This document shows positions 1 to 64,000 of a DNA stretch of 64,000 nucleotides, piece after piece (the stretch's first letter is position 1; every line of letters starts with the position of its first letter). A program made the translations under genes and the position numbers. This DNA is from Limosilactobacillus reuteri (lineage in GTDB: Bacteria; Bacillota; Bacilli; Lactobacillales; Lactobacillaceae), in assembly GCF_013694365.1 (NCBI RefSeq), contig NZ_CP059275.1, positions 1,364,001 through 1,428,000 of the forward strand, read 5' to 3'. A model generated the notes under the pieces. The model saw nothing but the letters and a program-made list of their open reading frames with translations, had not been told where the DNA came from and ran no database searches.

Positions 1-1476
1 GTTAATGGGGCTCCAAAGATTTTAAGCTTGAAACAAATCTTGCAATATTATCTGGAACACCAGGAATCAGTTGTACGGCGGCGAACGGAATTTGAATTAA
101 AGAAAGCCCAGAATCGTGCGCACATTGTTGCCGGATTGCGGATCGCTTTAGACCATATTGATGAGATAATTAATATTATTCGTAATTCACAAACAAGTGA
201 AGTAGCGAAAAATGAGTTGATGAATAATTATGGTTTATCAGATCGACAGGCTCAAGCTATCCTCGATATGCGGTTAGTTCGGTTGACCGGTCTAGAACGG
301 GAAAAGATAGAGGATGAATACCAAAAATTAATGGCAGCAATTGCTGATTACAAGGATATTCTTGCTCATCGTGAACGGATCAATCAAATCATTTATGACG
401 AATTGATGGAAATTCAAAAACGTTTTGGAGATGAACGGCGGACTGAACTTCAAGTTGGTGATATTACCAATATTGAAGATGAAGACTTAATTGAAGAAGA
501 AGATATTATCGTTGCCTTGACCCACAATGGATACATTAAACGTCTTCCAGTTGATGAATTTAAGTCTCAGCATCGTGGGGGTCGTGGTGTTAAGGGAATG
601 GGAGTTCATAAAGATGATTTTATTGAACAACTAATTTCTAGCTCAACTCATGATATGTTGCTCTTCTTTACTAATTCAGGAAAAGTATACTCAATGAAAG
701 GGTATGAAGTTCCTGAATATGGTCGGGCTGCGCAGGGAATTCCAATTATTAACCTGCTTGGAATTAATAATAAAGAGAAGATTAGCGCTGTTATCAATGT
801 TTCACATGAAACTAACGATGATGATAAATACCTCTTCTTTATTACTAAGCTAGGAACAGTTAAACGGACAGCAGTAACAGAGTTTAAGAATATTCGAAGT
901 AATGGATTAAAGGCGCTTAATCTCCATGAAAACGATGAATTGATTGATGTAGAAGTTATTAGTGAAGATCAGCCAATGATTATTGGTACTCATAATGGAT
1001 ATGCTCTTAGCTTTAAATCATCAGTTGTTCGGTCAATGGGGCGAAGCGCGGCTGGAGTTCGTGGGATTCGTTTACGAGATGAAGACTACGTAATTGGCGC
1101 TGCCCCTCTTAATTCTGATAGCAAGGTACTTGTAATTAGTGAAAATGGTTTTGGAAAGCAAACTCCTGCTTCTGAATACCCAATCAAAGGCCGGGGCGGA
1201 TTAGGAGTTAAGACAGTTAATGTTACTGTAAAGAATGGCCCGCTGGTTGGTTTAACGACTGTCAATGGTGATGAAGATATCATGTTAGTGACCGACCAGG
1301 GAGTAATTATTCGTTTTGGCATTGAAAGTGTATCGCAAACTGGACGATCTGCGGTTGGTGTTCACTTAATTAAGATGGATAATGGTGCCCGTGTTGCTAC
1401 GATTGCAAAGGTGGATAAAGAAGTCGATGAGGAGACTGAAGAAGTAACTAATAATTCCTCACAAGAAGAAAATTAA
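1..1476 (+). CDS. gyrA: DNA gyrase subunit A, C-terminal part (cut by window start)
   Basis: GyrA is the breakage-reunion subunit of DNA gyrase, which introduces negative supercoils with GyrB. The frame is open from base 1 (VNGAPKILSLKQ...), so the TTG at 28 is internal and the 5' part of the gene lies outside the window. About 491 residues remain: the coiled-coil/tail of the cleavage domain, then the beta-pinwheel DNA-wrapping domain. The GyrA box appears as QHRGGRGVKG at bases 568-597, followed by blade repeats with related GRxxxG motifs. The tail is acidic (EVDEETEEV), as is common. The active-site Tyr and the quinolone-resistance region are not visible. Identity is secure. Confidence 0.97.
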   Translation, partial: VNGAPKILSLKQILQYYLEHQESVVRRRTEFELKKAQNRAHIVAGLRIALDHIDEIINIIRNSQTSEVAKNELMNNYGLSDRQAQAILDMRLVRLTGLEREKIEDEYQKLMAAIADYKDILAHRERINQIIYDELMEIQKRFGDERRTELQVGDITNIEDEDLIEEEDIIVALTHNGYIKRLPVDEFKSQHRGGRGVKGMGVHKDDFIEQLISSSTHDMLLFFTNSGKVYSMKGYEVPEYGRAAQGIPIINLLGINNKEKISAVINVSHETNDDDKYLFFITKLGTVKRTAVTEFKNIRSNGLKALNLHENDELIDVEVISEDQPMIIGTHNGYALSFKSSVVRSMGRSAAGVRGIRLRDEDYVIGAAPLNSDSKVLVISENGFGKQTPASEYPIKGRGGLGVKTVNVTVKNGPLVGLTTVNGDEDIMLVTDQGVIIRFGIESVSQTGRSAVGVHLIKMDNGARVATIAKVDKEVDEETEEVTNNSSQEEN

Positions 1477-1773
1477 ATGGAAACACGCAAATATGAAATT
1501 ACTTACATCATTCGTCCTGATATCGAAGAATCTGCAAAGAGCGAATTGGTAGACCGATTCGACAAGATCTTGGCGGACAATGGTGCAACTATCGCTGACT
1601 CAAAGGATTGGTCAACTCGTCGTTTTGCTTACCCAATCGCTAAGTACACTGAAGGTACTTACCACGTGGTAAACTTAACTACTGATTCAGACCAAGCTTT
1701 AAACGAATTTGATCGTTTAGCTAAGTTCAGTGATGATATCCTACGTCACATGATTGTTAAGCTTGATGCTTAA
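1477..1773 (+). CDS. rpsF: 30S ribosomal protein S6
   Basis: The product is 98 residues, normal for bacterial S6, and starts [19 protein letters not shown]6 binds S18 on the central domain of 16S rRNA in the small-subunit platform. The order rpsF-ssb-rpsR is the conserved Firmicute operon. The ATG directly follows the gyrA stop and has no Shine-Dalgarno sequence in front of it. That is implausible for a highly expressed ribosomal protein gene and suggests the native leader has been removed. The native operon usually carries an S6:S18-binding leader RNA; none is present here. Confidence 0.97.
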
Positions 1774-2337
1774 ATGCTTAATCGTGCAGTCTTAACTGGG
1801 CGTTTAACAAGAGATCCCGAGTTGCGGTACACAACCAGCGGGACGGCTGTTGTTTCATTTACGTTAGCTGTTGATCGGCAATTCCGAAACCAAAATGGTG
1901 ATCGTGATGCTGACTTTATCAATTGCGTTATTTGGCGTAAATCCGCTGAAAACTTTAGTAACTTTACGCATAAGGGTTCACTTGTTGGAATTGAAGGGCG
2001 TATTCAAACCCGGAATTATGAAAACCAACAGGGTAACCGTGTATATGTTACCGAAGTTGTTGTAGATAACTTTGCATTGTTAGAACCTCGTCAAAATGGT
2101 GGTATGAACCAATCAGGCGTTCAACAGCCATTTAACAATACCCAACAATCGTTTGGTGCTCAGGCTCCACAATATGGCAGTCAACCACAACCTGGAAATA
2201 ATGCTCCTCAAAGTAATCCGTCACCAAGTATGGACAATGGTTTCGATCCCAATCAAAATGCTGGCAACCAGTTCCCTGGAAGTAGTGATGATGGTGGTCA
2301 ATCCATTGATTTAGCTGATGACGAATTACCATTCTAA
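1774..2337 (+). CDS. ssb: Single-stranded DNA-binding protein
   Basis: SSB coats single-stranded DNA in replication, recombination and repair and recruits partner proteins through its C-terminal tip. The 187-residue product has an OB-fold at about residues 1-107 ([20 protein letters not shown]). A Gln/Asn/Gly/Pro-rich flexible linker follows, then the acidic tip DDELPF that binds partners. It sits between rpsF and rpsR as in most Firmicutes. The start is the canonical MLNR. It abuts both neighbours with no spacer. Confidence 0.97.
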
Positions 2338-2574
2338 ATGGCACAACAACGTCGGGGCGGACGTCGTCGTCGTAAGGTCGACTTCATCGCCGCAAACCAC
2401 ATCGAATACATCGATTACAAAGACACTGATTTATTACGTCGGTTCATTTCTGAACGTGGTAAGATCTTACCACGTCGGGTTACTGGTACCAGTGCTAAAA
2501 ACCAACGTAAGTTAACTATCGCTATCAAGCGTGCACGGATCATGGGTCTTTTGCCATTCGTTGCAGAAGACTAG
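2338..2574 (+). CDS. rpsR: 30S ribosomal protein S18
   Basis: The product is 78 residues and rich in Arg at the N-terminus ([17 protein letters not shown]), with the conserved S18 core ([21 protein letters not shown]). S18 pairs with S6 in the 30S platform. It is the third gene of the rpsF-ssb-rpsR operon. The ATG follows the ssb stop directly, and no ribosome-binding sequence lies in the preceding bases (gacgaattaccattctaa). Confidence 0.97.
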
Positions 2575-2811
2575 ATGAAACTAAATAAATATATTGATCA
2601 TACTTTACTAAGTCCCGAAGCAACAGAAGCACAAGTAGAAAAAGTTATTAAGCAAGCAATTGATAATCATTTTCATACTGTTATGATTAATCCATACTGG
2701 GTTGCTAAAACTCATAAAGCATTAGAAGAAACTGATGTAGTAACAGCAACTGTTATTGGTTTTCCTCTTGGAGCCACTACAACTGCAACAAAAGTTTTTG
2801 AAACTGAGTAA
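2575..2811 (+). pseudogene. deoC: Deoxyribose-phosphate aldolase, N-terminal fragment (nonsense-truncated)
   Basis: DeoC splits 2-deoxyribose-5-phosphate into acetaldehyde and glyceraldehyde-3-phosphate in deoxynucleoside salvage. This 78-residue piece carries the normal N-terminus ([17 protein letters not shown]) up to [13 protein letters not shown] and then stops at TAA. Intact family members continue with a Gln after the corresponding E, so the likely lesion is CAA to TAA. The piece stops before the conserved catalytic Asp. About ten residues that should join it to the next fragment are absent from the window. That fits two separately annotated halves having been joined without the DNA between them. 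Function is presumably lost. Confidence 0.85.
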
Positions 2812-3198
2812 ATGGTTATGAATATTGGCGAAATGAAAGGCAAAAATTATGCTAAAGTAGCTGATGATATTAAGACAGTTGTTAAAGTTGCTCATAATGC
2901 CAATAAGGTTGCAAAGGTAATTATTGAAACAGCTTTGCTAACTGATGATGAAATCACTAAGGCATCTAAGATTGTTGCTGATGCAGGTGCTGACTTTGTA
3001 AAAACATCAACAGGTTTCTCAACCCGTGGAGCAGCAGTTCATGATGCTGAATTAATGTCAGCAGCTACTAAAGAAACTCCCACTGAAGTAAAGGCTTCTG
3101 GTGGTATTCATACAACCGAAGAAGCAGAAGCAATGATTAATGCTGGAGCTACAAAGTTGGGCGTTAGCCATAGTATGCAAGTTATTGGTAAAGAATAG
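2812..3198 (+). pseudogene. deoC: Deoxyribose-phosphate aldolase, C-terminal fragment
   Basis: This 128-residue piece begins inside the TIM barrel (MVMNIGEMKGKNYAKVADD) and runs to the normal DeoC C-terminus. It keeps the Schiff-base lysine in VKTSTGF and the second active-site lysine in VKASGG. It lacks the N-terminal strands, so it cannot be a working aldolase alone. In intact homologues this Met is an internal residue just after the catalytic Asp. With the preceding fragment it would total roughly 215-220 residues, the family length. Its 3' neighbour is a SorC/DeoR-type regulator, the usual partner of deoC. Confidence 0.85.
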
Positions 3199-4134
3199 GT
3201 GGATAGTAAGCAACAAATTAAACAGGCCGTCCAGGTTAGTAAACTTTACTATTTAGATGGCGTTACCCAAGCAGAAATCGGAAAAAAACTAAATTTATCG
3301 CGACCAACAATTTCTCGATTACTTCAATTTGCACGCGAGAAAAATATTGTCAAAATTTCAATAAATGATCCCCTTAGCAATATTGAAGATCTGCAGCACC
3401 AATTAAAAGAAAAGTATCAACTAAAGGATGTCATTATTAGTACTCCAGAAAGCAATGAAACGGCTGAAATTTTATCATCTTTAGGTAAGGCCACGGCTCG
3501 TTACCTTGATAAAAAAGTTAAGGATAATGATGTTATTGGTGTTAGTTGGGGAAGGACACTGGTCAGCGTAGCACGTCAATTGATACCAAATGACCGTAAA
3601 AATGTTCAGGTGGTCTATTTTAAAGGAACAGTGGCGAACTCTACTCATAATAATTATGTTGTAGAGGTTACTAAATGTTTTAATAAATGCTACCATACCC
3701 AGGCGCAGATTCTTCCGCTTCCTTTAATTTTTGAAAATAAGCAAATTAAAGAGATGGTGATAAAAGATAAATTTATTAACGAGATTTTAGATACTGGTAA
3801 GCGGACAAGCGTGGCACTTTTTACGGTAGAAACGACGGAACAAGATGCAACGCTATTTGAACTAGGTTATTTTAATGATCAGCAAATTAAAACCTTGCAA
3901 GAGAAAGCAGCCGGGGACCTTGTTTCTCGCTTTATTGATGAACGCGGGAAAATCGTTGATGACCAGTTAAATGATCGCACAGTTGCTATTGCTTTAGATG
4001 ATCTAAAACAAGCTCGGGAATCAGTTCTTATCGCTGGTGGAATGAATAAGTTAAAAGCAATCAAAGCGGCCTTAGCTGGAAAATATGCAAATGTATTAGT
4101 AACCGATTCACTTGTGGCTCAACACCTATTATAG
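3199..4134 (+). CDS. deoR: SorC-family transcriptional regulator, DeoR-like (deoxynucleoside operon)
   Basis: The protein has 311 residues and a GTG start. An N-terminal helix-turn-helix at about residues 17-45 (GVTQAEIGKKLNLSRPTISR) is followed by a SorC sugar-phosphate-binding domain to the end (VIGVSWGRTL, LIAGGMNKLKAI). B. subtilis DeoR belongs to this family and represses the dra-nupC-pdp genes until deoxyribose-5-phosphate binds. Adjacency to deoC supports the same role here, but the effector is inferred. If deoC is dead, the regulator may control other nucleoside genes elsewhere. Its operator would lie in sequence missing from this window. Confidence 0.85.
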   Translation: MDSKQQIKQAVQVSKLYYLDGVTQAEIGKKLNLSRPTISRLLQFAREKNIVKISINDPLSNIEDLQHQLKEKYQLKDVIISTPESNETAEILSSLGKATARYLDKKVKDNDVIGVSWGRTLVSVARQLIPNDRKNVQVVYFKGTVANSTHNNYVVEVTKCFNKCYHTQAQILPLPLIFENKQIKEMVIKDKFINEILDTGKRTSVALFTVETTEQDATLFELGYFNDQQIKTLQEKAAGDLVSRFIDERGKIVDDQLNDRTVAIALDDLKQARESVLIAGGMNKLKAIKAALAGKYANVLVTDSLVAQHLL

Positions 4135-6153: not shown

Positions 6154-6606
6154 ATGAAAGTTATTTTTACACAAGATGTACGAGGCCGTGGTCAACGTGG
6201 TCAAATTAAGGAAGTTCCAGATGGCTATGCTCAAAACTACTTAATTAAGCGTGGATTAGCAAAACAAGCTACTAAGGCGGCGATGAGCCAACTAAAGGGT
6301 CAACAACGTGCTGAAGAAAAACATGCTGCTGAAGAATTAGCTGATGCCAAGCGGATGAAGAAGATTCTTGAAGATGATAATACAGTTGTTGAATTAAGTG
6401 GAAAAGCCGGTACAGATGGCCGGATGTTTGGTTCAATTTCAACAAAACAAATTGCAACTGCTTTACAAAAACAATTTGACCTTAAAATTGATAAGCGAAA
6501 GATTGAGCTGGCGGCTCCAATTAAGGCGCTTGGCTACGTAAATGTGCCAATTAAACTTCATCCAGAAGTCGAAGCTCAAATTCGTGTTCACATTGCTGAA
6601 AAGTAA
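6154..6606 (+). CDS. rplI: 50S ribosomal protein L9
   Basis: The product is 150 residues, full length for L9. It has the N-terminal 23S rRNA-binding domain (MKVIFTQDVRGRGQRGQIKE), a long connecting helix and the C-terminal domain. L9 sits at the base of the L1 stalk and helps maintain reading frame. It follows gdpP and precedes dnaC, the standard order. The end of gdpP (gaggagtga) resembles a ribosome-binding site but lies very close to the ATG, so the native spacing is probably longer. Confidence 0.97.
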   Translation: MKVIFTQDVRGRGQRGQIKEVPDGYAQNYLIKRGLAKQATKAAMSQLKGQQRAEEKHAAEELADAKRMKKILEDDNTVVELSGKAGTDGRMFGSISTKQIATALQKQFDLKIDKRKIELAAPIKALGYVNVPIKLHPEVEAQIRVHIAEK

Positions 6607-11715: not shown

Positions 11716-11788
11716 GGGCAGTTAGCTCAGCTGGCAGAGCAACGGACTCTTAATCCGTGGGTCCAGGGTTCGATCCCCTGACTGCCCA
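11716..11788 (+). tRNA. tRNA-Lys (anticodon CUU)
   Basis: A cloverleaf folds over 73 bases. The acceptor stem gggcagt pairs perfectly with actgccc at 11781-11787, and the discriminator is A at 11788. The anticodon is CTT at 11749-11751 and reads AAG lysine codons. The T-arm contains ggttcgatc. The CCA end is not encoded; the bases after the discriminator are tca, so a CCA-adding enzyme is needed. It directly follows the Fic fragment and is only three bases before a MarR-type gene, leaving no room for a promoter or terminator. Confidence 0.95.
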
Positions 11789-11791
11789 TCA

Positions 11792-13948: not shown

Positions 13949-14215
13949 TAAATAAAATAAGAGGCTGGGAAAAAACTCCTAGTCCAAATAAAAACCGGAT
14001 GATGAATTTTTTGAACAATTCATCATCCGGTTTTTATGTACACAGGAAATCGTTCCTGATATGATGTAATTACCCCTAAAAACAACCGCTTAGTATTCGA
14101 CACACTAAAGGCTACTGGTCTTTTCTTTTTTTGTAAATAAGTAAATTGGTCTACAAAAAAGATTTCCACGACCAGATGAATTATTCATCCAACCTATGAA
14201 AATCTTACACTAACT
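13949..14215. other. 267-base non-coding, hairpin-rich stretch (possible insertion-element remnant)
   Basis: This is the only sizeable gene-free stretch in the first 48 kb. No convincing reading frame is present on either strand. It opens with gaggctgggaaaaaactcct, a type of sequence that I associate with ends of insertion elements and repeats in lactobacilli. It contains a perfect 21-bp hairpin (13988-14037), a small hairpin (14043-14058), a larger imperfect hairpin (14115-14175) and a 7-bp inverted repeat with a one-base centre (14175-14189). No ribosome-binding site precedes the next gene. A decayed transposon end, a repeated element or an untranslated RNA are all possible. I cannot decide between them. 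Confidence 0.5.
13988..14037. terminator. Perfect 21-bp hairpin, bidirectional terminator-like
   Basis: The arms 13988-14008 and 14017-14037 are exact reverse complements, with an 8-base loop (ttttgaac). The upper stem contains accggatgatgaatt and the foot is A/T-rich, so either strand gives a stem followed by a short U run. It lies 40 bases after the ABC transporter stop and would suit a transcription terminator. The unusual stem length also fits a mobile-element end. Confidence 0.6.
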
Positions 14216-17788: not shown

Positions 17789-18544
17789 ATGGAAAACAGA
17801 AATATTTTAAAAAAGGATGAAAGAATTGATCAGTTATATAGTCAGGATGTACGGATAATCCAAAATCCCCATTATTTTGCTTTTTCGTTAGATGCTGTCT
17901 TATTAGCAAACTTTGTGCGTCCCAATCATCGACAGAAATTAAAAATTGTTGACTTGTGCGCTGGAAATGGGGCAATCGGCATTTTTCTCCACGATAAGCT
18001 TGGCGGAACATTTACCGAAGTTGAATTACAACCACAGATTGCTGATATGGCTGAACGGACAATTTTGCTAAATGATTTACAAGATCGTTATACCGTCATT
18101 AATGATGATATCGCAAACGTTAATGATTATATTTCTAAGGACTCGATTGATATTGTCCTTTGTAATCCTCCTTATTTCCCAGTTACAGCCCAAAGCCAGA
18201 AGAATCCAAATAAAGCTTTAGCGATTGCTCGTCACGAAATAGCGACTGATTTAGTGACAGTTGTTAAAAAGATGAATGGCTTATTAAAAATGAATGGTCA
18301 TGGGTATCTTGTGCATCGTCCAGATCGTTTAGGTGAGATTTTACAAGTGTGTCAGGAAAATAGATTAGCACCTAAAAGAATTCAATTTATTCATCCTAAA
18401 CCTGATCGTGATGCGAATATTTTGTTGCTTGAAGTGATTAAGGATGGCCGGCCTGGAGGAGTAAAAGTAGTACCACCATTGATTGTTCATGGAGCAGATA
18501 ACCAGTATACTCCAGCGGTTCAGGAGTTATTATATGGCAAGTGA
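17789..18544 (+). CDS. tRNA1(Val) adenine-N6 methyltransferase-like protein (YabB/TrmN6 family)
   Basis: The 251-residue product is an S-adenosylmethionine-dependent methyltransferase. The SAM site is VDLCAGNGAIGIFL (about residues 53-66) and the adenine-N6 catalytic motif is NPPYF (about 128-132). In E. coli the relative TrmN6 methylates A37 of tRNA1(Val). In Firmicutes the gene is usually followed by the GIY-YIG gene yazA, as here. The last 11 bases overlap the native start of that gene and are therefore present twice in this window. Confidence 0.88.
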   Translation: MENRNILKKDERIDQLYSQDVRIIQNPHYFAFSLDAVLLANFVRPNHRQKLKIVDLCAGNGAIGIFLHDKLGGTFTEVELQPQIADMAERTILLNDLQDRYTVINDDIANVNDYISKDSIDIVLCNPPYFPVTAQSQKNPNKALAIARHEIATDLVTVVKKMNGLLKMNGHGYLVHRPDRLGEILQVCQENRLAPKRIQFIHPKPDRDANILLLEVIKDGRPGGVKVVPPLIVHGADNQYTPAVQELLYGK

Positions 18545-18555
18545 ATGGCAAGTGA
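18534..18555 (+). repeat. Duplicated 11-base gene overlap
   Basis: The sequence atggcaagtga occurs at 18534-18544, ending the methyltransferase gene, and again at 18545-18555, starting the GIY-YIG gene. A single copy would serve both genes in an ordinary overlapping operon. The second copy marks a gene-by-gene join. Confidence 0.85.
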
Positions 18556-33382: not shown

Positions 33383-33664
33383 ATGCGTAAAGACATTGTT
33401 ACCGGTGAAATGATGCCTAAAAGGCAATTGATTCGGGTAGTTAAGAATAAGGAAAATGAAGTCTCCTTAGACCCAACTGGTAAAAAGCCTGGTCGTGGAG
33501 CATATGTTGCAGTAGATGTGGATATTGCAAAGCGCGCCAAGAAAGAAAAAACTTTTGAAAAAGCTTTTCATGTTCAACTTGATGAATCATTTTATGATGA
33601 ATTAATCAAGTATGCAGACCACCTACAGGCACGACAAGAGTTATTTGGTAATGATCAAAAATAA
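33383..33664 (+). CDS. ylxR: YlxR-family RNA-binding protein (RnpM)
   Basis: The product is 93 residues with the YlxR signature (TGEMMPKRQLIRVVKNKENE, then GRGAYV). In B. subtilis this protein has been reported to bind and modulate RNase P, hence the newer name RnpM. It is always found between nusA and ylxQ. Its last 14 bases overlap the native ylxQ start and are therefore duplicated at the junction here. Confidence 0.92.
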   Translation: MRKDIVTGEMMPKRQLIRVVKNKENEVSLDPTGKKPGRGAYVAVDVDIAKRAKKEKTFEKAFHVQLDESFYDELIKYADHLQARQELFGNDQK

Positions 33665-33678
33665 ATGATCAAAAATAA
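33651..33678 (+). repeat. Duplicated 14-base gene overlap
   Basis: The sequence atgatcaaaaataa stands at 33651-33664, the end of ylxR, and again at 33665-33678, the start of ylxQ. One copy would encode both gene ends in a normal overlapping operon. Confidence 0.88.
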
Positions 33679-38449: not shown

Positions 38450-38821
38450 ATGAAACATAAAGAACATCGCTATATTCAACCTCAGAATACTCAAGAAGCA
38501 ATGTTATTAATTCAGAAGTTATTTAATAAATACCGCAATGCGTCCCTAACGAATGAACTATTAGAATACCATAACAACCTAATCTATCGCTTGCAGTCAG
38601 ATATTAAAGACGAAGCAATTAAGGAGAACAATCCTAATCAACTTAAGGCACTTGCTTCCATGACCGAAATTATGCGTAACTGGACAACAGTACGCTTAAA
38701 CGGCCAGCCTTTTAACGGGAAAATGCGGCATTTCAAATTAGTGACTGATGGCGGATTCAAATTTGAACGAAATATTCATAAAATTAACCAGACTACCAGT
38801 CATCGGGGAAGTCGGCATTAA
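38450..38821 (+). CDS. Conserved hypothetical protein between ribF and hrcA
   Basis: The product is 123 residues, basic and mostly helical in character, with no signal peptide or membrane segment. I do not recognise the family. Notable stretches are HRYIQPQNTQEAMLLIQKLF at the start, an Asn-rich middle, and a C-terminal segment with several His and Arg (HKINQTTSHRGSRH). A helical, RNA- or protein-binding factor is conceivable but unsupported. It fills the gap between the translation operon and the heat-shock operon. Coding character matches its neighbours, so I take it as a real gene. Confidence 0.65.
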   Translation: MKHKEHRYIQPQNTQEAMLLIQKLFNKYRNASLTNELLEYHNNLIYRLQSDIKDEAIKENNPNQLKALASMTEIMRNWTTVRLNGQPFNGKMRHFKLVTDGGFKFERNIHKINQTTSHRGSRH

Positions 38822-39874
38822 ATGCTAACACAACGACAGAAAAAGATTCTGCAAGCGATTGTACGTCAATACACATCAACTGGTCAACCGGTTGGATCAA
38901 AACATTTAGCAGAAAAGTTGCCTTTTAAGGTCAGTTCAGCAACTGTCCGTAATGAGATGGCGGTTTTAGAGGACAATGATTTGATCTTAAAAGAGCACTC
39001 TTCATCAGGCCGGATTCCATCAAAACGAGGTTACCGTTATTATGTTGATAATTTGCTTGATCCACAAGCAGTTACTGATAATGACCTGGTAGTAATTCAA
39101 AACTCACTTGGAACCGGTTTTCAAAAGATTGACGAGATTATTTCACATTCAGCAGATATCTTATCAAACTTAACTTCATATACTGCTTTTACATTAAAGC
39201 CTGAGCAAGAAAGTGTTCGTTTGAGTGGCTTTCGAGTTGTGCCGCTAGGAAATCATAAGGTTATTGCGATCTTGGTTACCGATAGCGGTGAGGTTGAAAA
39301 TCAGTCATTCACTTTGCCGTCGGACATTGACACAGATGCATTGCAGGCAGTAATTAGAATGATTAATGATCAATTAGTTGGTTTGCCGCTATCAGAAGTG
39401 GTAAAACGACTAAAAGATGATATTCCACTTCAGGTTCTGCATTATATGCATAGTCCCGATGGTTTCCTTGATATTTTTGATAATGTCTTATCTCAAGCAG
39501 CACGTGAGCGGTTTTTCGTTGGTGGTCGATTGAACTTACTGGATTTTGCAAGTACTCATGATCCCCATGCAATCCAATCACTGTATGGCTTGTTAGATAA
39601 GAACGACAACTTATCGAATATCTTGGATTCAACACTTACCTCAGATAATGGAGTTAATGTTAAAATCGGTCAAGAAATCTCTAAGAATAAGCTTCTTGAT
39701 GATTATAGCTTGATTACTGCAAGTTATAATGTTGAACAATATGGACGAGGAATTATTGCAGTTCTTGGTCCAACAAGGATGCCTTATTCACGGACGATTG
39801 GAATTGTAAATGCCTTTCGCCAAGAATTAGCAAAACGGCTATTAGATTTCTACCGTCACTATTATGATTCATAG
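38822..39874 (+). CDS. hrcA: Heat-inducible transcription repressor HrcA
   Basis: HrcA represses class I heat-shock genes by binding CIRCE inverted repeats. The 350-residue product has the N-terminal winged helix (LTQRQKKILQAIVRQYTSTG, VSSATVRNEMAVLE) and the conserved SSSGRIPSKRGYRYYVDNLL, followed by the GAF-like core with NVKIGQE. Length is normal. It heads hrcA-grpE-dnaK-dnaJ, as in most Firmicutes. No CIRCE element is present before this gene, although one is expected in this family. Confidence 0.96.
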   Translation: MLTQRQKKILQAIVRQYTSTGQPVGSKHLAEKLPFKVSSATVRNEMAVLEDNDLILKEHSSSGRIPSKRGYRYYVDNLLDPQAVTDNDLVVIQNSLGTGFQKIDEIISHSADILSNLTSYTAFTLKPEQESVRLSGFRVVPLGNHKVIAILVTDSGEVENQSFTLPSDIDTDALQAVIRMINDQLVGLPLSEVVKRLKDDIPLQVLHYMHSPDGFLDIFDNVLSQAARERFFVGGRLNLLDFASTHDPHAIQSLYGLLDKNDNLSNILDSTLTSDNGVNVKIGQEISKNKLLDDYSLITASYNVEQYGRGIIAVLGPTRMPYSRTIGIVNAFRQELAKRLLDFYRHYYDS

Positions 39875-45301: not shown

Positions 45302-46462
45302 ATGAATGGTAATGTTAGAAAGCGTGGTAAAAAATGGTACTACCGCTTTGATATTGCTGACAAAGACGGAAAAAGGCGACAATACGAACGAGTCGGAGGC
45401 GATTCTTACAAGGAAGCAATGCACCGATTACGCGTTGCTTTAGAGCTTTATGAAAATACAGGAGCAGTTACCAATACTGATAAGATTTCAACTCATGATT
45501 ACTTTGAATTTTGGTATGACAATTATGTTAAGACCAACTTATCTAAAAACACTCAGCTGAATTATCGGCATGTCTTGGATAAATATGTGCAACCTACCCT
45601 CGGAATTTACCAATTATCTAAAGTCACTCCAGAATTAATTCAAAAGACTATTAATAAGATCGCCGACTCTACCGAATACAAGCCTGATCACACACGACTG
45701 CATGGTCATACTGTCGAAATTATTCTTATGGTTATCAAGGAAGGATTTAGACAAGCGGTCCATCCCTGGCATATTCTTACTCAATCACCTGCAGAATATG
45801 TCCGGCAGCCAAAATATAACCATCCTAAAACTACAAGAGAAGATCTAAAAATTATTACTCTACAACAATTTAATCAACTTTTAGAGCAATTTCCTCTTGG
45901 CCACCCATTTCACCTTCCCCTCTTAATCAGCTTTTATACTGGAATGAGGCGTGGAGAAGTAGCTGGTCTTGAATGGGATAATGTTAGTTTACCAGATGCT
46001 GAAATTAATGTTACTCAGCAGATGAAACAGTATTCCAAAACGGATGTTCGACTTGGAAAACTAAAAACAGCCGCCAGTTATCGAACAATTGCAATCGGTG
46101 ATCAACTTATCCATGCGCTTAAAGTTCAGCGGCGACTACAAAATGAAAATCGTTTACGATATGGTAAAAATTACCATGAATCTAACTTTGTATGTACAAA
46201 AGAAAATGGGAAACCAGTCACTCCCAATTCGATTAAGTACTATGCAAGTACTGTCACTAAAGAGCTAGGTTTCCCATTTAATTTCCATAGTTTGCGTCAT
46301 ACCCACGCAACCATGTTACTAGAAGCGGGTGCATCTGCTAAAGAGGTCCAAGTACGATTGGGTCATAACAAAATTGCCACCACTCTAGATACCTATGTCC
46401 ATCTTAGCAATAAGAAGAAACATCAAACAGCAAATCTATTTGATCAAATAGCTAAAATGTAA
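45302..46462 (+). CDS. int: Site-specific tyrosine recombinase (phage/island integrase)
   Basis: Tyrosine integrases insert and excise phages and genomic islands at attachment sites. The 386-residue product has an N-terminal arm-binding domain (KRGKKWYYRFDIADKDGKRR), a core-binding SAM-like domain (about 60-165) and the catalytic domain. Active-site residues are visible: Arg in YTGMRRGEVAGLEW (near residue 214), Lys in LGKLKTAASYRTI, HxLR in FHSLRHTHATM (near 328), the second His in VRLGHNKIATT and Tyr in DTYVHL (near 363). It looks intact. It directly follows lepA, and an Abi-type gene follows it, so it marks the edge of an acquired element. Attachment sites are not visible. Confidence 0.93.
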   Translation: MNGNVRKRGKKWYYRFDIADKDGKRRQYERVGGDSYKEAMHRLRVALELYENTGAVTNTDKISTHDYFEFWYDNYVKTNLSKNTQLNYRHVLDKYVQPTLGIYQLSKVTPELIQKTINKIADSTEYKPDHTRLHGHTVEIILMVIKEGFRQAVHPWHILTQSPAEYVRQPKYNHPKTTREDLKIITLQQFNQLLEQFPLGHPFHLPLLISFYTGMRRGEVAGLEWDNVSLPDAEINVTQQMKQYSKTDVRLGKLKTAASYRTIAIGDQLIHALKVQRRLQNENRLRYGKNYHESNFVCTKENGKPVTPNSIKYYASTVTKELGFPFNFHSLRHTHATMLLEAGASAKEVQVRLGHNKIATTLDTYVHLSNKKKHQTANLFDQIAKM

Positions 46463-47635
46463 TTGTTGGGCAAAAAGCTAAAGCAGGTAAAGTTTCTTAC
46501 ATATGAACAAATGGTAGATAACCTAAAAAATAAAAATTTAAGTATTTCAGATAAGAAACTAGCAATTGAACTAATTAAAGCTCGTGGATATTATAATCTT
46601 GTAAATAGATATAAAAATCATATTTATAATTCTAACAGGCACTATCCTAATCATACCCATTTAACTGATTTGTATTTATTTCAGGTAATGGAATCAGATC
46701 TTCAAGATATATTATTTCAAGCAACAATTAATTTTGAACACAGATTTAAAGAGGCAATGGCCCATTCCCTTTCGAAAGAATTTGGAATTGGCGAAGCAGA
46801 TTATCTTGATCCCTTGAAATATAAACGCAGAAAACGTAATAAAGCTATTAGTATAACAGCATTTTTACTAGATATTGCATATCATACTGATAAAAATCCA
46901 ACTAGATATTATCGTAGAAGGTATGACTGTATTCCTCCTTGGATTCTTATTAACAATGTAACTTTAGGTCAAGTTAGGATGTGGTTTTCAATCTTTAATT
47001 CAAAAATGACAAGTACTGTTGTTTCCGAAATGTTACCAATTGATACATATCCGTCACAGATTATAGTTGGTAATTCCGGTGTTGGTTCTCTTGCATTAAG
47101 ACAAATGCGAATGAAATCAAAGCCAGGAGAGTACCGTGATATATTCGGCTTTTTTCATGACCAAAGTGCTGAAGAAGTAAAAAAGTTAGAAGACGAATAT
47201 CAAAAAGATTTCGATAATATAATTAATTTATTCAAAAACATGTTAAGTATTATTCATGATTTTAGAAATAATTTAGCTCACGGAAATGGTCTCTTTGATT
47301 TTAAGTCAAACTCCTCTTTACTTTTGACTCCTTTAAGACTTTTTGCATCAACGTCAGTAATTACCAATCAAGAGTTTAACAGTAGATTTGGTAAAAATGA
47401 TTTGCTATCTTTTATGATTTCGTTAATACTAACTCTTGATAAATACGACTCACTTAATCTAATTAAGCACCTAAGAGACTGGAGAAATAATAATAATTCC
47501 ACACCTGAGAGAAGCAATGCACTTAATCTTTTCCTAAAAGGATTAAACCTACCTACAAACTTCATAAGTAGACTAGAACATATAAATATAGAGTTAACAC
47601 ACGAGCAATATCGACACCGAATGCAACTATTTTAA
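46463..47635 (+). CDS. Abi_2 (AbiD/AbiF-type) abortive-infection protein with HEPN motif
   Basis: The product is 390 residues with a TTG start. The N-terminus carries the Abi_2 pattern (FLTYEQMVDNLKNKNLSIS, then IELIKARGYYNLVNRYKN), and the middle has INFEHRFKEAMAHSL. An RX4H HEPN ribonuclease motif, RNNLAH, is at residues 268-273. AbiD/AbiF proteins of lactococci stop phage growth by sacrificing the cell. Published work, as I recall it, links AbiF-type HEPN proteins to a nearby non-coding RNA antitoxin. The gene is more AT-rich and Asn/Ile-rich than its neighbours, in keeping with transfer. Any flanking RNA would be in sequence missing here. Target and trigger are unknown. Confidence 0.85.
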   Translation: MLGKKLKQVKFLTYEQMVDNLKNKNLSISDKKLAIELIKARGYYNLVNRYKNHIYNSNRHYPNHTHLTDLYLFQVMESDLQDILFQATINFEHRFKEAMAHSLSKEFGIGEADYLDPLKYKRRKRNKAISITAFLLDIAYHTDKNPTRYYRRRYDCIPPWILINNVTLGQVRMWFSIFNSKMTSTVVSEMLPIDTYPSQIIVGNSGVGSLALRQMRMKSKPGEYRDIFGFFHDQSAEEVKKLEDEYQKDFDNIINLFKNMLSIIHDFRNNLAHGNGLFDFKSNSSLLLTPLRLFASTSVITNQEFNSRFGKNDLLSFMISLILTLDKYDSLNLIKHLRDWRNNNNSTPERSNALNLFLKGLNLPTNFISRLEHINIELTHEQYRHRMQLF

Positions 47636-47779
47636 ATGAATAAAGAATCTACTGTAAATAGTAACAGTCAATCTAAGATAGAAACTATCCATGCCTCAAT
47701 TGATCCAAAAGCAACTGAGGAAGAACGTGAAGAGATTATTAAATGGATTGAGAATCTAAAGAAGCAGAAGCAGAAATAA
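47636..47779 (+). CDS. Small 47-residue charged protein of unknown function
   Basis: A short open frame starts at ATG right after the Abi stop and ends at TAA right before the next gene. It encodes 47 residues: a polar Asn/Ser-rich N-half (MNKESTVNSNSQSKIE) and an amphipathic, strongly charged C-terminal helix (TEEEREEIIKWIENLKKQKQ). I know no family for it. The exact fit between neighbours suggests it was annotated as a gene. Its position after an Abi/HEPN toxin-like gene allows an antitoxin or accessory role, but nothing in the sequence proves this. Confidence 0.6.
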   Translation: MNKESTVNSNSQSKIETIHASIDPKATEEEREEIIKWIENLKKQKQK

Positions 47780-48166
47780 TTGGCACAGATGATGAAAATA
47801 GCAAAGATAATTAGCACTAAAGCAGTTGTAATTAATGCCGGTATTGATAATCACTTACGAAAAGGAGATAAATTAGAAATCATCGATAAATTCGGCACAG
47901 ATCCCGTAATAGATCCTGATACAGGTAAAAGTCTTGGAACATTAGATTTACCTAAGGGAGAATTAATCGTCACAGAAGTTTATCCCAAAATGGCTATTGC
48001 GGAAGCTCCTAGGAAGCCCGCCATACCATATCTTTCTAATGGTATTCCTGGACTACCATCTATTCAAAATGATTTAAATGTAGATCCAGAACAGATTACA
48101 GGTGGATTTCCTAAGCCATCAGGAGAACAAATTAAAGTTGGTGACATAGTTATAAAGCGTTCATAA
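47780..48166 (+). CDS. Hypothetical 128-residue protein, beta-rich
   Basis: The product is 128 residues with a TTG start (MAQMMKIAKIISTKAVVINA). The pattern of short strands, turns and a repeated GDxxxI (KGDKLEIIDK near residue 34, VGDIVIKRS at the end) suggests a small beta-barrel, distantly like the C-terminal domain of FlgT-type proteins. I consider that resemblance tentative. The middle is rich in Pro and Gly (APRKPAIPYLSNGIPGLPS). There is no signal peptide or membrane segment. It belongs to the integrase/Abi block and has no recognised function. Confidence 0.6.
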   Translation: MAQMMKIAKIISTKAVVINAGIDNHLRKGDKLEIIDKFGTDPVIDPDTGKSLGTLDLPKGELIVTEVYPKMAIAEAPRKPAIPYLSNGIPGLPSIQNDLNVDPEQITGGFPKPSGEQIKVGDIVIKRS

Positions 48167-48761
48167 ACGCGGTTTGTAAAATTAAGTTAGAAAAATAAAA
48201 AGCCATTTGTGGTAGACTTTTGAATACCCATACATCAAAAGAAAGGACACCACAAATGACCTACCATCATCTTACCATAGACGAACTAACGATGGTCATA
48301 CCTCAGGTCACTTTGAAGCAGATACAGTTTTATCTGGAAAGCGTAAAGGTCAAGCAATAGCTACGTTTGTCGAGCGTAAGAGTCGTCTTATCATCGTTAA
48401 ACGGCTTCAGGGACGAGATAGTACCTCAATGACCAAGGCCATTTTAGAATTAGCTAACCAGTTAGAAGATAATCTCAAGACCCTTACTGTTAACCATGGG
48501 AAAGAATTCGCTAACTACAAGCTAATTGAAGAGCAGGCCAGGATTCCCCTCTACTTTGCGCATGCTTATTCTCCACATGAACGGGGCAGTAATAAGAATC
48601 GCAACCGAGTACTACGACGCTTTATCCCCAAAGGTCAACCGATTGAGGAAATCACTGATGATGAGTTAATTCAAATTAACTGGTATTTGAACTCCAGGCC
48701 ATTCAAATGTTTAAACTGGCGCACACCAATTGAGATCTTTTTGCGTAATCTGCATCACTAA
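48167..48761 (+). pseudogene. IS30-family transposase remnant, copy 1 (internal deletion)
   Basis: Bases 48167-48255 are non-coding and end in a left-end-like stretch with a ribosome-binding site (gaaaggacacc) before ATG 48256. The frame then reads MTYHHLTIDELTM, the normal IS30 start, but soon leaves the right frame and stops after about 34 codons. The DNA-binding half of the gene is missing. From 48297 the other frame resumes with the catalytic domain (HTSGHFEADTVLSGKRKG) and runs to TAA at 48761. At the second catalytic Asp there is Asn (TVNHGKEF, codon 48492-48494) and at the catalytic Glu there is Lys (GSNKNRN, codon 48594-48596). The element is dead. Confidence 0.85.
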
Positions 48762-49256
48762 CTTTGTTCAAGTTATTTCTTGCAATCTGCCCATACCTCA
48801 GGTCACTTTGAAGCAGATACAGTTTTATCTGGAAAGCGTAAAGGTCAAGCAATAGCTACGTTTGTCGAGCGTAAGAGTCGTCTTATCATCGTTAAACGGC
48901 TTCAGGGACGAGATAGTACCTCAATGACCAAGGCCATTTTAGAATTAGCTAACCAGTTAGAAGATAATCTCAAGACCCTTACTGTTAACCATGGGAAAGA
49001 ATTCGCTAACTACAAGCTAATTGAAGAGCAGGCCAGGATTCCCCTCTACTTTGCGCATGCTTATTCTCCACATGAACGGGGCAGTAATAAGAATCGCAAC
49101 CGAGTACTACGACGCTTTATCCCCAAAGGTCAACCGATTGAGGAAATCACTGATGATGAGTTAATTCAAATTAACTGGTATTTGAACTCCAGGCCATTCA
49201 AATGTTTAAACTGGCGCACACCAATTGAGATCTTTTTGCGTAATCTGCATCACTAA
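48297..49256 (+). repeat. 465-bp perfect direct repeat, two IS30 tails in tandem
   Basis: The segment from catacctcaggtcact to the stop codon occurs at 48297-48761 and again at 48792-49256, and I see no difference between copies. They are separated by 30 bases (48762-48791), probably the normal 3' non-coding end of the element. The repeat contains the IS30 catalytic domain with two inactivating changes. Because the flanks differ at the left joint, this is not a simple doubled gene overlap like the other junction repeats. Confidence 0.85.
48780..49256 (+). pseudogene. IS30-family transposase C-terminal fragment, copy 2
   Basis: An open frame of 158 codons begins at TTG 48780 (MQSAHTSGHFEADTVLSGK) and covers only the catalytic half of an IS30 transposase. 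The first five or so residues come from the 3' non-coding end of copy 1. Asp13 matches the first catalytic Asp, but position 70 is Asn and position 104 is Lys, where active enzymes have Asp and Glu in a D-33-E spacing. The N-terminal helix-turn-helix is missing. It cannot transpose. It ends directly before a DegV-type gene. Confidence 0.85.
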
Positions 49257-50135
49257 ATGAAAATTGCTGTTGTTACTGACAGCACTGCCTACCTTTCTCC
49301 TGAAGAGGCGGCGGCTAATAATATTCATGTTGTCCCAATCCCAGTGACATTGGATGGTCAAACATACCGTGAAGGTGTCGATATTTCCACCAGTGATTTT
49401 TATGAAAAGATGGCAAATTCAAGCTCTTTTCCAACGACTTCTCAAACGCCAATCGGTCAATTGATGGAAGTTTATCAAGGATTAGCCGATGATGGGTATG
49501 ATGCTGTGATTAGCATTCATTTAACACGGGCTATTACAGGATATTTGGATACTGTTGAACAACTTGCTGAGCAGATGAAGGATACAATCAAGATCGTACC
49601 AATTGATTCCCACCTAACAGTTAAAATGATGGGGTACTTAGCCTTAGAAGCAGCTAAATTAGCTAGTGAAGGCGATGATTTAGATGACATTGTTAAAAAG
49701 GTAAAAGAATATCGTGATACCTTTAATAATGTATTTGTGGTTGATGACTTGCAAAACCTTGTTCGTGGTGGTCGTTTATCAAACGCCTCTGCATTTGTAG
49801 GCTCAATTTTAAAAATCAAACCTCTCCTGACTATGCATACTCCAACGCATGCCATTGAAGCGTTTGAAAAGGTGCGGTCAATGAAAAAGGCTAAACTTCG
49901 CTGTGAACAAATCTTTGATGAGGATATTGCCAAACTTGACTATCCAGTTAGAGCGATGGTTGTTCACGCAAATGCTCCAGAAGAAGGCCAAAAGTGGCTT
50001 GATAAACTTCAAGCGGATCATCCTGATATTTTATTTGAGTTGAGTTACTTTGGTCCAGTAATTGGTTCCCACTTAGGACAAGGAGCCCTGGCCTTAGCAT
50101 GGATGCAAGATACAGCAAAGAAGCCTTTAGTATGA
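49257..50135 (+). CDS. DegV-family fatty-acid-binding protein
   Basis: The product is 292 residues with the DegV fold: the N-terminal KIAVVTDSTAYLSPEEA, an SFPTTSQTP motif near residue 60 and the C-terminal HANAPEEGQKW and GSHLGQGALAL region. DegV/FakB proteins hold a fatty acid for FakA kinase, so exogenous fatty acids can be activated. Not all paralogues are proven to pair with FakA. The native stop overlaps the next gene (atga), and the last 37 bases are duplicated at the junction. Confidence 0.92.
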   Translation: MKIAVVTDSTAYLSPEEAAANNIHVVPIPVTLDGQTYREGVDISTSDFYEKMANSSSFPTTSQTPIGQLMEVYQGLADDGYDAVISIHLTRAITGYLDTVEQLAEQMKDTIKIVPIDSHLTVKMMGYLALEAAKLASEGDDLDDIVKKVKEYRDTFNNVFVVDDLQNLVRGGRLSNASAFVGSILKIKPLLTMHTPTHAIEAFEKVRSMKKAKLRCEQIFDEDIAKLDYPVRAMVVHANAPEEGQKWLDKLQADHPDILFELSYFGPVIGSHLGQGALALAWMQDTAKKPLV

Positions 50136-50172
50136 ATGGATGCAAGATACAGCAAAGAAGCCTTTAGTATGA
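50099..50172 (+). repeat. Duplicated 37-base gene overlap
   Basis: The same 37 bases occur at 50099-50135 (end of the DegV gene) and 50136-50172 (start as given for the membrane-protein gene). With one copy removed, the DegV stop and a natural ATG form an atga overlap, the classic translational coupling arrangement. Confidence 0.88.
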
Positions 50173-51470: not shown

Positions 51471-52319
51471 ATGAATTTATTATTTTCAATTAACGACAAA
51501 TTTGTCACGCAATTAGCAACAGTTTTGTTATCGATCAAGTTAAATACTCATGCACAAGAATTTAACGTATATGTCTTACAAAAGGAGAAATTGAAACGAA
51601 CTGAAGACTTGGAAAGAGTTTGTAAGCAATTAGGAATGAACTATTTTCCAATCAAAGTTAATGATCAATTATTTAGCAAAGCACCAGTTACAGACCGCTA
51701 TCCGACAACAATTTATTATCGTTTACTAGCACACCGTCTTTTACCTCAAGATTTGCATAAAATTTTATACTTGGATGCTGATGTATTGTGTATTAATGAT
51801 CTTTCAAGTCTGTATGAGACTTCATTAGAGGGATACCTATATGCTTCTGCCATCCATACAAACCTGACGAATACGACAGAGGTTATTAATAAGATTCGTC
51901 TGCAAAACTTTGATGCTGACGGGTATTATAATTCTGGCGTTCTCTTGATGAATCTTGATACTATCCGTAAAAAAGTAAAGGATACGGACATTTTTAACTA
52001 CATCCGTACCCATACACTTTTACTCCCTGATCAAGACGTCTTGAATGCCTTATATGGACGCTATATTAAGTCTGTCCCTGATCAGTTATATAATTTTGAT
52101 ACTCGTAAGGGTGGTATTTACGAAACGATTTCCTTTGGCGAATGGACAACCGATTGGATAATGCGTAATACTGTGATTCTCCATTATTGCGGGCGAGACA
52201 AGCCATGGCTACCAACTAAAAATAGTGGTCGTTACACTGCTTTATACAAAAACTACTTTCAAATGACTAATAAACTTATTAGTGCAACATTATTATTTTC
52301 CCCAGAAGAAGTTAATTAA
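51471..52319 (+). CDS. Glycosyltransferase family 8 protein
   Basis: The product is 282 residues with the GT-A fold of family 8: MNLLFSINDKFVTQLATVLL at the start, the metal-binding DxD in ILYLDADVLCI (near residue 103), YYNSGVLLMNLDTI, PDQDVLNALY and HYCGRDKPW near the end. Such enzymes add glucose or galactose to lipopolysaccharide, teichoic acid or glycoprotein acceptors. No membrane segment is visible. The acceptor is unknown. The following gene encodes a secreted hydrolase. Confidence 0.9.
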   Translation: MNLLFSINDKFVTQLATVLLSIKLNTHAQEFNVYVLQKEKLKRTEDLERVCKQLGMNYFPIKVNDQLFSKAPVTDRYPTTIYYRLLAHRLLPQDLHKILYLDADVLCINDLSSLYETSLEGYLYASAIHTNLTNTTEVINKIRLQNFDADGYYNSGVLLMNLDTIRKKVKDTDIFNYIRTHTLLLPDQDVLNALYGRYIKSVPDQLYNFDTRKGGIYETISFGEWTTDWIMRNTVILHYCGRDKPWLPTKNSGRYTALYKNYFQMTNKLISATLLFSPEEVN

Positions 52320-53165
52320 ATGATCAAATTTATTAAATTTAATTTAACAATATTTACTGCATTTTTCCTAATATTCATTTATGGACTAGCAGTAAATCCA
52401 GTTCATGCAGATCTCTCAAATAAATATATTCATTCTACTACCCCCACCCTCTTTTTCCATGGCTACGGAAGCGGTGCCCATGCAGAAGAATATATGGTAA
52501 ATGGTTTTGTGAAAGCAGGTGTGTCAAAGACAGTTATCACCGCAGATGTTGCTGGCGATGGAACCGTTACTCTTAAAGGAGATATTCCTCATAACGCCGT
52601 CAATCCGCTCGTGATGGTCAATTTCAATGATAATCATAGCACAAATTATGAATTACAAGGACAATGGGTTAAGAACGTTCTTGAAGAACTGCAAGCTAAA
52701 TATCATTTTAAAAAGGTAAATATTGAAGCACACTCCATGGGAAACATGGCAGTTATGTATTTTCTGCTTGCTAATGCCGGCAACCATAATCTTCCACAAA
52801 TTCAAAAACAAGTTGCGATGGCTGGAACCTTTGATGGTGCAATCGGTTGGAATGAACCTGCTAATCTAATAGTGAATAAAAAGACGGGAAAACCTTCCGC
52901 AATGAATGATTCCTATCAAAAATTACTTCCTTTACGTCACCGCTACCCACGGCAAATTAAATTATTGAATATTTACGGTGACTTAAAAGATGGCAACGAT
53001 AGCCAAGTTTCAAACGCTTCCTGTCTTTCTCTTAAATATCTTATTAATAACCGCGCACGTTCATACCGCGAAGTTAAGATTACCGGACCAAATGCTAAAC
53101 ATGAATTACTTCATCACAACCCCCAAGTCAATAAAATCTTAATTAACTTCTTCTGGGGAAAATAA
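52320..53165 (+). CDS. Secreted alpha/beta hydrolase (DUF915-type cell-surface hydrolase)
   Basis: The product is 281 residues. A signal sequence (about 1-30: basic start, hydrophobic FNLTIFTAFFLIFIYGLAV, then a cleavage region near VHA-DL) predicts export. The mature part has the alpha/beta-hydrolase fold with TPTLFFHGYGSGAHAEEYMV and a nucleophile elbow AHSMGNMAV near residue 138, and a late His in HELLHHN. DUF915 proteins are common on lactobacillus surfaces and are thought to be esterases or lipases. Substrate is unknown. Confidence 0.88.
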   Translation: MIKFIKFNLTIFTAFFLIFIYGLAVNPVHADLSNKYIHSTTPTLFFHGYGSGAHAEEYMVNGFVKAGVSKTVITADVAGDGTVTLKGDIPHNAVNPLVMVNFNDNHSTNYELQGQWVKNVLEELQAKYHFKKVNIEAHSMGNMAVMYFLLANAGNHNLPQIQKQVAMAGTFDGAIGWNEPANLIVNKKTGKPSAMNDSYQKLLPLRHRYPRQIKLLNIYGDLKDGNDSQVSNASCLSLKYLINNRARSYREVKITGPNAKHELLHHNPQVNKILINFFWGK

Positions 53166-54398: not shown

Positions 54399-54859
54399 AT
54401 GAATCAATATCAAAAATTAGTAGATAATTTAACGAAGTTAAATTTACATAATATGGCTGCATCAATCGCAGATTATCGTCAACAAGTCAATGATAACCAA
54501 ATTAGCTTTAGTGAAGCATTGTTAAAACTAACGGATAAGGAGATTACCTATCAGCAACAAGAAAGCTTAAAGAGAAGAATCAAACGCGCTAGATTTCCGA
54601 TTATTAAACGACTCAATGATTTTAATTATCAATTTCAGCCTTCAATTAATCCGCAACAAATCGCTGAATTTGCGACTATGTCATTTCTGGACAATCAAGA
54701 AAACATTATCTTTATTGGCAGCCCTGGCGTAGGTAAAACACATCTGTCAATTGGGCTTGGTATCGAAGCATGTCGACAAGATGTACGAATACTATTTATT
54801 AATTGCCATGAACTAATTCTTAGATTGAAAGCAGCTCAAGAAAAGCAACACTTAGAGCA

Positions 54860-55163
<304 letters not shown>

Positions 55164-56444: not shown

Positions 56445-56711
56445 ATGAAAGCTGTTGTATCTGTTCTAGGTGAAGACCAAGTTGGAATTATCGCTAAGGT
56501 AAGTGCCCTCCTTGCCCAAAAACAAATTAATATTCTAGATGTTTCCCAAACAATTATGGATGGCAATTTCGTAATGATGATGTCTGTGATGATTCCTGAA
56601 AATCTTGATAGTTATCAATTAACTAATGAATTTACAGAACTCGGTAAAGAGATTGGTGTTGAAATCAACCTTAGAAATGCCAAAATTTACGATGCCATGC
56701 ATAATCTTTAA
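56445..56711 (+). CDS. ACT-domain protein (UPF0237)
   Basis: The product is 88 residues, one ACT domain: KAVVSVLGEDQVGIIAKVSA, then INILDVSQTIMDGNFVMMMSV. ACT domains bind amino acids or other small ligands. This family is the constant partner of UPF0210 proteins, and a regulatory role is assumed. Length is normal. In most genomes this gene comes before UPF0210, so the order here fits a minus-strand pair whose genes were each rewritten in sense orientation. Confidence 0.9.
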   Translation: MKAVVSVLGEDQVGIIAKVSALLAQKQINILDVSQTIMDGNFVMMMSVMIPENLDSYQLTNEFTELGKEIGVEINLRNAKIYDAMHNL

Positions 56712-62759: not shown

Positions 62760-62939
62760 ATGAGTTTAATTAAAAGCTTAATTGTTGTAGTTATAGCTAT
62801 TGTTCTATTGGTTGGCGGTGTTAGCGCAAGTTCTATCTATACCGCAAAGAAAAACGTTAATAGCCATGACCTTAGTTACCAAATGACAAATATTGTAAAT
62901 AAAAATAAAGAAACAGTTGATTACCAGTTAAATAAGTAG
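62760..62939 (+). CDS. Small 59-residue membrane peptide
   Basis: A short frame from ATG 62760 to TAG 62937-62939 encodes 59 residues. It has one N-terminal membrane helix (SLIKSLIVVVIAIVLLVGGV) and a polar, Asn/Lys-rich outer or inner tail (KKNVNSHDLSYQMTNIVNKN). I recognise no family. The helix plus ASS after it could also be a signal peptide. It exactly fills the space between the acyltransferase-like gene and uxaB. A single-helix partner of the neighbouring acyltransferase or transporter is possible but not shown. Confidence 0.6.
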   Translation: MSLIKSLIVVVIAIVLLVGGVSASSIYTAKKNVNSHDLSYQMTNIVNKNKETVDYQLNK

Positions 62940-64000
62940 ATGGAAAGTCTAAATAATAGTTTTCGTAAATTGCCACAATATCCTAATAAAGTAATTCAGT
63001 TTGGTGAAGGAAACTTCTTACGAGCCTTTATTGATTGGCAAATTCAGCAGATGAATAAGCAAGGATTGTTTAAGGGCGGTGTCCAGATTGTACAGCCGTT
63101 ACCAACAGGGCGTGTAAAGGAACTTGATGCGCAGGATGATCTTTATACTGTATTACTTGAAGGTATTTTAAATGGTGAAAAGATCCAAAGTCATGAAATC
63201 ATTGAATCGGTAAATGGAACTGTTAATCCATATACTGATTATGATAAGTACCTAGCACTTGCTGAAGATGACAACATTGAAGTTATTTTTTCTAATACCA
63301 CTGAAGCAGGAATTGCGTTTGATAAGAATGATACCCTTGAAAAAATTAAAAATGGTGAAAAGAGTTCATATCCTGCTAAGTTAACCGCTTTGCTTTACCA
63401 TCGATTTAAACTCGGTAAGAAAGGTTTCCATATCATTCCATGTGAGTTGATCAACCACAATGGTGACGCATTGAAGAAGACGATTTTACAATATGCTGAT
63501 TTATGGAATCTCGGACAGGACTTTGTTGATTGGATTAATAATGATAATGAATTTTACTCCACATTAGTTGATCGGATTGTTCCTGGCTATCCACGTGATC
63601 GTGCTGCTGACTTAGAAAAAGAGTGGGGTTATAAAGATCAAAATATGGTTAAGACTGAGCCGTTCTTAATTTTTGTAATTGAAGGTAACAAAGATATTGA
63701 AAAAGTTTTGCCACTTAAGGAAGCTGGCATTAATCTTGTGGTTACCGATGATATGCAACCATATCGTAATCGAAAGGTATCTATCCTTAATGGACCTCAT
63801 ACAACAATGTCTCCAATTGGTCGCCTAGCTGGATTAGAAAGTGTTGGTCAGGTAATGGCTGATAAGGACTTCTATAAGTTTATTGACGATGAAATGCATA
63901 AAGAAATTATTCCAGTTGTTCCATTACCAAAAGAAGAATTAGAGAGCTATGCCAAGGGAATTCAAGAACGTTTTGAGAATCCGTATGTTAAACACCAACT
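62940..64000 (+). CDS. uxaB: Tagaturonate reductase (altronate oxidoreductase), cut by window end
   Basis: UxaB reduces D-tagaturonate to D-altronate with NADH, the step after uxaC in galacturonate use. The visible 353 residues match the family in order: QFGEGNFLRAFIDWQI near residue 20, FSNTTEAGIAFD near 118, HIIPCELINHNGDALKK, STLVDRIVPGYPRD near 205 and ILNGPHTTMSPIGRLAG near 282. The gene runs off the right edge. The motif set fits UxaB better than the fructuronate reductase UxuB. Altronate dehydratase (uxaA) and KDG genes may lie beyond the window. Confidence 0.93.
   Translation, partial: MESLNNSFRKLPQYPNKVIQFGEGNFLRAFIDWQIQQMNKQGLFKGGVQIVQPLPTGRVKELDAQDDLYTVLLEGILNGEKIQSHEIIESVNGTVNPYTDYDKYLALAEDDNIEVIFSNTTEAGIAFDKNDTLEKIKNGEKSSYPAKLTALLYHRFKLGKKGFHIIPCELINHNGDALKKTILQYADLWNLGQDFVDWINNDNEFYSTLVDRIVPGYPRDRAADLEKEWGYKDQNMVKTEPFLIFVIEGNKDIEKVLPLKEAGINLVVTDDMQPYRNRKVSILNGPHTTMSPIGRLAGLESVGQVMADKDFYKFIDDEMHKEIIPVVPLPKEELESYAKGIQERFENPYVKHQ

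Follow-up and report, generated by a model that had tools for sequence, protein, structure and literature searches.

Two near relatives of the DNA considered here are Limosilactobacillus reuteri WF-AA1-C and L. balticus BG-AF3-A, which provided the best two loci among the matches listed for the gdpP-like gene at position 4135, a list from which records of the same genome, or very near ones, may be absent. In both relatives the gene order of our sequence is conserved in long blocks and the genes are spaced and oriented in the usual manner: in L. balticus none of 55 neighbouring pairs has zero spacing, the median is 60 bases and 13 pairs lie on opposite strands, and in WF-AA1-C the corresponding values are 0 of 48, 52 bases and 11 pairs. 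The same pairs abut, all in the forward sense, in the stretch of 64,000 bases analysed here (the window), which was taken from a single-contig record (2,085,667 bases in length, listed with completeness 100 and contamination 0.96) at positions 1364001-1428000. This record is a database artefact and not biology, and it shows no real chromosome layout; we estimate at about 98% the probability that it is a file of feature sequences turned into a "genome".

1..64000, + strand: concatenated annotated features in coding sense; the parent record is of the same kind

Spacing and strand in comparison with close relatives

Pairs were compared when they were consecutive features lying on the same contig within 3 kb in the relative. 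The 75 features of the window give 74 pairs, of which 19 in L. balticus and 26 in WF-AA1-C were left out on account of a feature without a match over 60% of its length, a position on another contig or a distance above 3 kb. Outlying spacings of 1900 bases in L. balticus and of 2663 and 1965 bases in WF-AA1-C come from the choice of a second, identical copy of the tRNA-Lys gene; with the copies at 107983 and 115300 the spacings are 149, 39 and 148 bases, and the zero counts are unchanged.

The preliminary description of this DNA had interpreted the window as a paste of annotated genes, and had predicted that alignments would break at every gene boundary with a constant loss of intergenic bases. 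Set against the two relatives, the pasting is well supported: spacers are gone, opposite-strand genes are written forward and native overlaps are duplicated. The intergenic bases are indeed missing at the junctions, but their loss is not constant, the number of bases lost being the relative's own spacing, from 1 to 289 bases in L. balticus with the mis-assigned tRNA pair excluded. Since several spacers are of equal size in both relatives (216, 37, 33, 121, 162 and 222 bases), the loss lies in the record of the window. Nor are coding genes the only material pasted: coding genes, tRNA, rRNA and repeats are all included, without spacers, each in its own sense and, within blocks, in the order of a real chromosome.

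1477..2574, + strand: rpsF, ssb and rpsR, with 0 bases before each; 216, 37 and 33 bases in both relatives

A real but extremely compacted chromosome, devoid of intergenic DNA, would agree with a sequence that is almost spacer-free and is called 100% complete. Close kin of a natural gapless chromosome would be expected to have zero spacing at the same genes; instead, no such pair was found (0/55, 0/48), and these near relatives show normal spacing and strands there. Compaction would in addition require very many single-gene inversions onto one strand.

Two regions of the window differ in content from the relatives. Between rpsR and gdpP, positions 2575-4134 hold a fragment of a DeoC-like aldolase (2812-3198) as well as a sugar-binding transcription regulator, and 2575-2811 has no Pfam match; at this place there is nothing but a spacer of 215 bases in L. 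balticus, and WF-AA1-C shows two contig ends. An insertion in the strain, or one more boundary between source contigs, would account for the region. At 45302-48166 a phage-type integrase is followed by an Abi_2-family protein and by features unmatched in the regions taken from the relatives; a prophage or an island may begin or end here, interrupted by the repeat module at 48167 (see below).

Zero-gap junctions in the window and across the record

That some 70 genes follow each other with no base between stop and start, as had been claimed, is borne out by a chaining algorithm, which on the + strand of the window finds 67 zero-gap junctions out of 74; two of the seven breaks merely reflect the last gene running off the end, before which the count is 67 of 72. 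A strict walk from 1477 passes through 72 ORFs, each beginning on the base after the preceding stop, with four breaks (11716, 13949, 48167 and 48762). The genes rpsF, ssb, rpsR and tsf, named as abutting their neighbours in the preliminary description, do so at 1477, 1774, 2338 and 20618. When the same algorithm is applied to both strands of 8 regions of the two relatives, 14 of 411 junctions are zero-gap, an upper estimate because ORFs down to 25 aa were admitted, and with a simpler method the figures are 64 for the window vs 5 for 31 loci of the relatives, both strands included.

Two properties go beyond what had been noted: the chained genes all lie on one strand, and the pattern extends to the genome as a whole. 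The parent record was sampled by 20 stretches of 20 kb spread across it; the sequence taken outside the window amounts to 22.6% of the record, and the part examined to 25.7% (536 kb) in all. Taken together, the window and the 20 samples have 452 zero-gap junctions of 566, or 450 of 519 when the sample from the tail of the record (L113) is left out. Among the 19 other samples the share goes from 58% (L112, 18/31) to 100% (L095, 22/22); the low values of L112 and of L094 (13/19) are in part due to the last gene running off the stretch, before which they are 18/22 and 13/14. The tail sample, made of repeat pieces, has only 2 of 47. A local masking or trimming accident confined to the window, within an otherwise normal parent record, is very improbable in view of these shares in 19 of the 20 samples: normal spacing was not seen in the sampled part of the record outside the window, and no point was found in favour of such an accident.

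Native overlaps written twice

Where the genes of the relatives overlap, the window repeats the shared bases, once at the end of the first gene and again at the start of the second:

18534..18555, + strand: 11-base native overlap, doubled, at junction 18544/18545
33651..33678, + strand: 14-base native overlap, doubled, at junction 33664/33665
50099..50172, + strand: 37-base native overlap, doubled, at junction 50135/50136
51471..53165, + strand: two genes written forward at junction 52319 that in both relatives converge and share 27 bases

The first three overlaps are single in both relatives and duplicated letter for letter in the window, a 7-base overlap of WF-AA1-C is duplicated exactly at junction 10929, and at 52319 the final 27 bases of the first gene are the reverse complement of the final 27 of the second; in all, duplicated overlaps are exact at five window junctions. 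Elsewhere in the record (L107:17036), a GTGA that occurs once in the relatives between a 375-aa and a 649-aa frame, which we take to be recF and gyrB, is doubled. A compacted chromosome would have to have duplicated its gene overlaps.

Over 393 junctions, a suffix-prefix match of at least 8 bases occurs at 8, vs 0.145 expected from shuffled pairings. One of these eight, 8 bases at 1773, is not a native overlap, the relatives having 37 bases there, and thus suffix-prefix matches alone can mislead. Exactly 4 duplicated bases are found at 4 of the 393 junctions vs 5.7 in shuffled pairings, an absence of enrichment that counts against the paste, since many bacteria have numerous gene overlaps of this length; in this clade, however, such overlaps turned out to be rare, with three distinct places in the loci examined.

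A separate case of duplication is seen at 54399-55163, where a single IS21-type IstB ATPase is split over two ORF features, which cover Pfam positions 3-146 and 149-232 and have a duplicated 31-base end/start, as from two overlapping calls on a frameshifted gene.

Missing control elements

Shine-Dalgarno-like words are found before 5 of 58 starts in the window, while at the orthologous starts in the two relatives the counts are 42/59 and 36/54; over the junctions of all samples (47/393) they are reduced, not absent. T-boxes give one match, below cut-off, in the record vs 21-32 matches in six congeners, and the only Rfam match of the window at gathering scores is the tRNA. With a search pattern in which up to 3 substitutions were permitted, no CIRCE operator was found in the 536 kb of the record examined; in each of the two relatives it is present once, with one substitution, before hrcA.

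38450..39874, + strand: hrcA (38822), directly behind the stop codon of a gene found on the other strand in both relatives; the 120/119-base spacer with CIRCE is gone

Runs of at least 6 T occur at 0.20 per kb on the + strand of the window vs 0.75 in the L. balticus regions, which agrees with a loss of terminators, with the reservation that genes lie on both strands in the L. balticus regions.

For a compacted chromosome these counts would mean that most ribosome sites and nearly all T-boxes were lost while close relatives keep them. They bear also on a deliberately designed (refactored or synthetic) chromosome, whose designer could have placed the genes on one strand and without spacers; most genes of the record lack a ribosome-binding site.

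Residual non-coding stretches, 127-base modules and repeats

A few non-coding stretches had been thought to survive between the genes of the window. Their coordinates are correct, but they are the CCA end of a tRNA and pieces of repeats:

11716..11791, + strand: tRNA-Lys, 76 bases with CCA, between two coding genes; 11789-11791 is its end
13949..14215, no strand assigned: 140-base stretch followed by a 127-base module (14089-14215); synteny with the relatives breaks here
48167..48779, no strand assigned: 127-base module (48167-48293), then a transposon piece; exact copies of the module in L111 and L139
48780..49256, + strand: transposase fragment with an rve domain below the Pfam cut-off; repeat of the transposon piece

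In the relatives the tRNA-Lys gene is on the strand opposite to that of its neighbours. Most of the 140-base stretch from 13949 is 86% like a piece of L109, and the module after it has an exact copy in L111, being directly before an ATG in both places. The transposon piece after the second module is presumably IS30-like, and 465 of its bases (48297-48761) recur exactly at 48792-49256. The two modules, each of which sits at a synteny break with respect to the relatives, abut in L111 between a stop codon and an ATG.

Repeats of this length are frequent in the record: among the maximal exact repeats of at least 60 bases in the window and the 20 samples, 133 of 357 are 125-129 bases long, most of them involving L113, without which 33 exact repeats are left, 7 of them 126-128 long. 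RASTtk reports repeat_region features. The largest k-mer of SPAdes is 127, and the ends of its contigs retain sequence that overlaps (PMC5481147). The 127-base modules are most likely repeat features at the contig ends of a fragmented short-read assembly; as marks of contig ends, they suggest that the window spans at least three source contigs.

rRNA, tRNAs and the tail of the record

All three full SSU rRNA copies found are on the + strand, while genomes G008 and G014 have copies on both strands. Two of the three are directly followed by antisense SSU sequence, which in L140 extends over at least 343 bases with 98.8% identity. In the tail sample L113, 92% of the sequence has further copies, with at least 90% identity, among the pieces sampled, for the most part inside L113 itself; in the preceding stretch, L139, repeats occupy 60-93% of each 2-kb bin, and in L138, before it, 6-99%.

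L139 and L113 form the last 40 kb of the record, with 667 bases between them not taken and with 60-100% repeats per 2-kb bin; group II intron fragments and 5S rRNA pieces in both orientations, present in L113, and many exact repeats of 125-129 bases characterize this tail. In L096, three tRNAs are joined without any spacer (3559-3783), and another two come after them, up to 4144; with an odd anticodon call (Phe aaa) and 36% GC, they are perhaps phage tRNAs.

A compacted chromosome would need antisense rRNA beside rRNA, and its probability appears to us vanishingly small, so that a natural origin of the gapless layout can practically be dismissed. No purpose of design is evident in split transposase genes, transposon scraps, antisense rRNA or a repeat tail, and no description of a designed strain of this kind was found among the best-ranked titles of literature searches, so that a synthetic origin is extremely improbable. 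The reading that we prefer remains that of a feature-sequence file.

Surveys of related genomes

In a survey of 300 genomes of the family, the motif AAGGAGG-N4-9-ATG was found 25 times forward and 5 times reverse in the record, vs totals of 82 to 181 in the 16 other congeners of the table; this survey is weak taken alone, since a smaller genome outside the genus reaches only 28 vs the record's 30, with balanced strands and in a genus that is low throughout. In a second survey, of 395 genomes of the order, a codon motif of the ABC signature occurs 14 times forward and never in reverse in the record, and inspection of the table by reading revealed no other of the 395 with zero on one strand. The one-strand pattern was seen in no other record of the 300 and 395 genomes surveyed; the record is therefore isolated within these samples and does not reflect a group trait.

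Proposed origin of the record and its consequences

The starting point may have been a fragmented short-read assembly in many contigs, obtained with a k-mer of 127 and annotated by a pipeline, presumably RASTtk-like, that would also report repeats and ORFs antisense to rRNA. The feature FASTA would then have been joined, in contig order, into one sequence, in which the contig ends would appear as 127-base repeat features and the small repeat contigs would make up the tail. The paste has no function, its intergenic DNA having disappeared in the file and not from the organism.

With features pasted in one direction by computer, nothing biological can be read from spacing, strand or control regions. 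Inferences on spacing, strand, operons, leaderless genes, promoters, terminators or riboswitches drawn from this record are void, while its single proteins are still usable; the biological interest of the record is low, and its worth as a quality warning moderate. It is conceivable, if rather doubtful, that reference collections contain other feature-concatenation "genomes" as well, a small class that carries no flag and passes the checks of completeness. Should this class exist, it would introduce a quiet bias in studies of intergenic DNA, strand bias, operons and riboswitches. Literature searches, limited to the best-ranked titles, gave no report of feature-concatenation records or of the present one. 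Two cheap tests would catch such records: strand counts of coding motifs and the share of stop-to-start junctions.

Comparison with known systems

Two known systems are close to the record. In gene content and block order it resembles the normal chromosomes of the L. reuteri clade (WF-AA1-C and BG-AF3-A), with matched genes mostly at 91-100% DNA identity and a few at 68-89%; unlike the record, these chromosomes have spacers, genes on both strands, CIRCE and Shine-Dalgarno sites. In arrangement it resembles a joined feature FASTA of CDS, RNA and repeat sequences, with which it shares the writing of each feature in its own sense, the zero spacing, the duplicated overlaps and the inclusion of repeats and tRNAs; unlike a plain file of this kind, however, it is stored as a one-contig genome and passes completeness checks.
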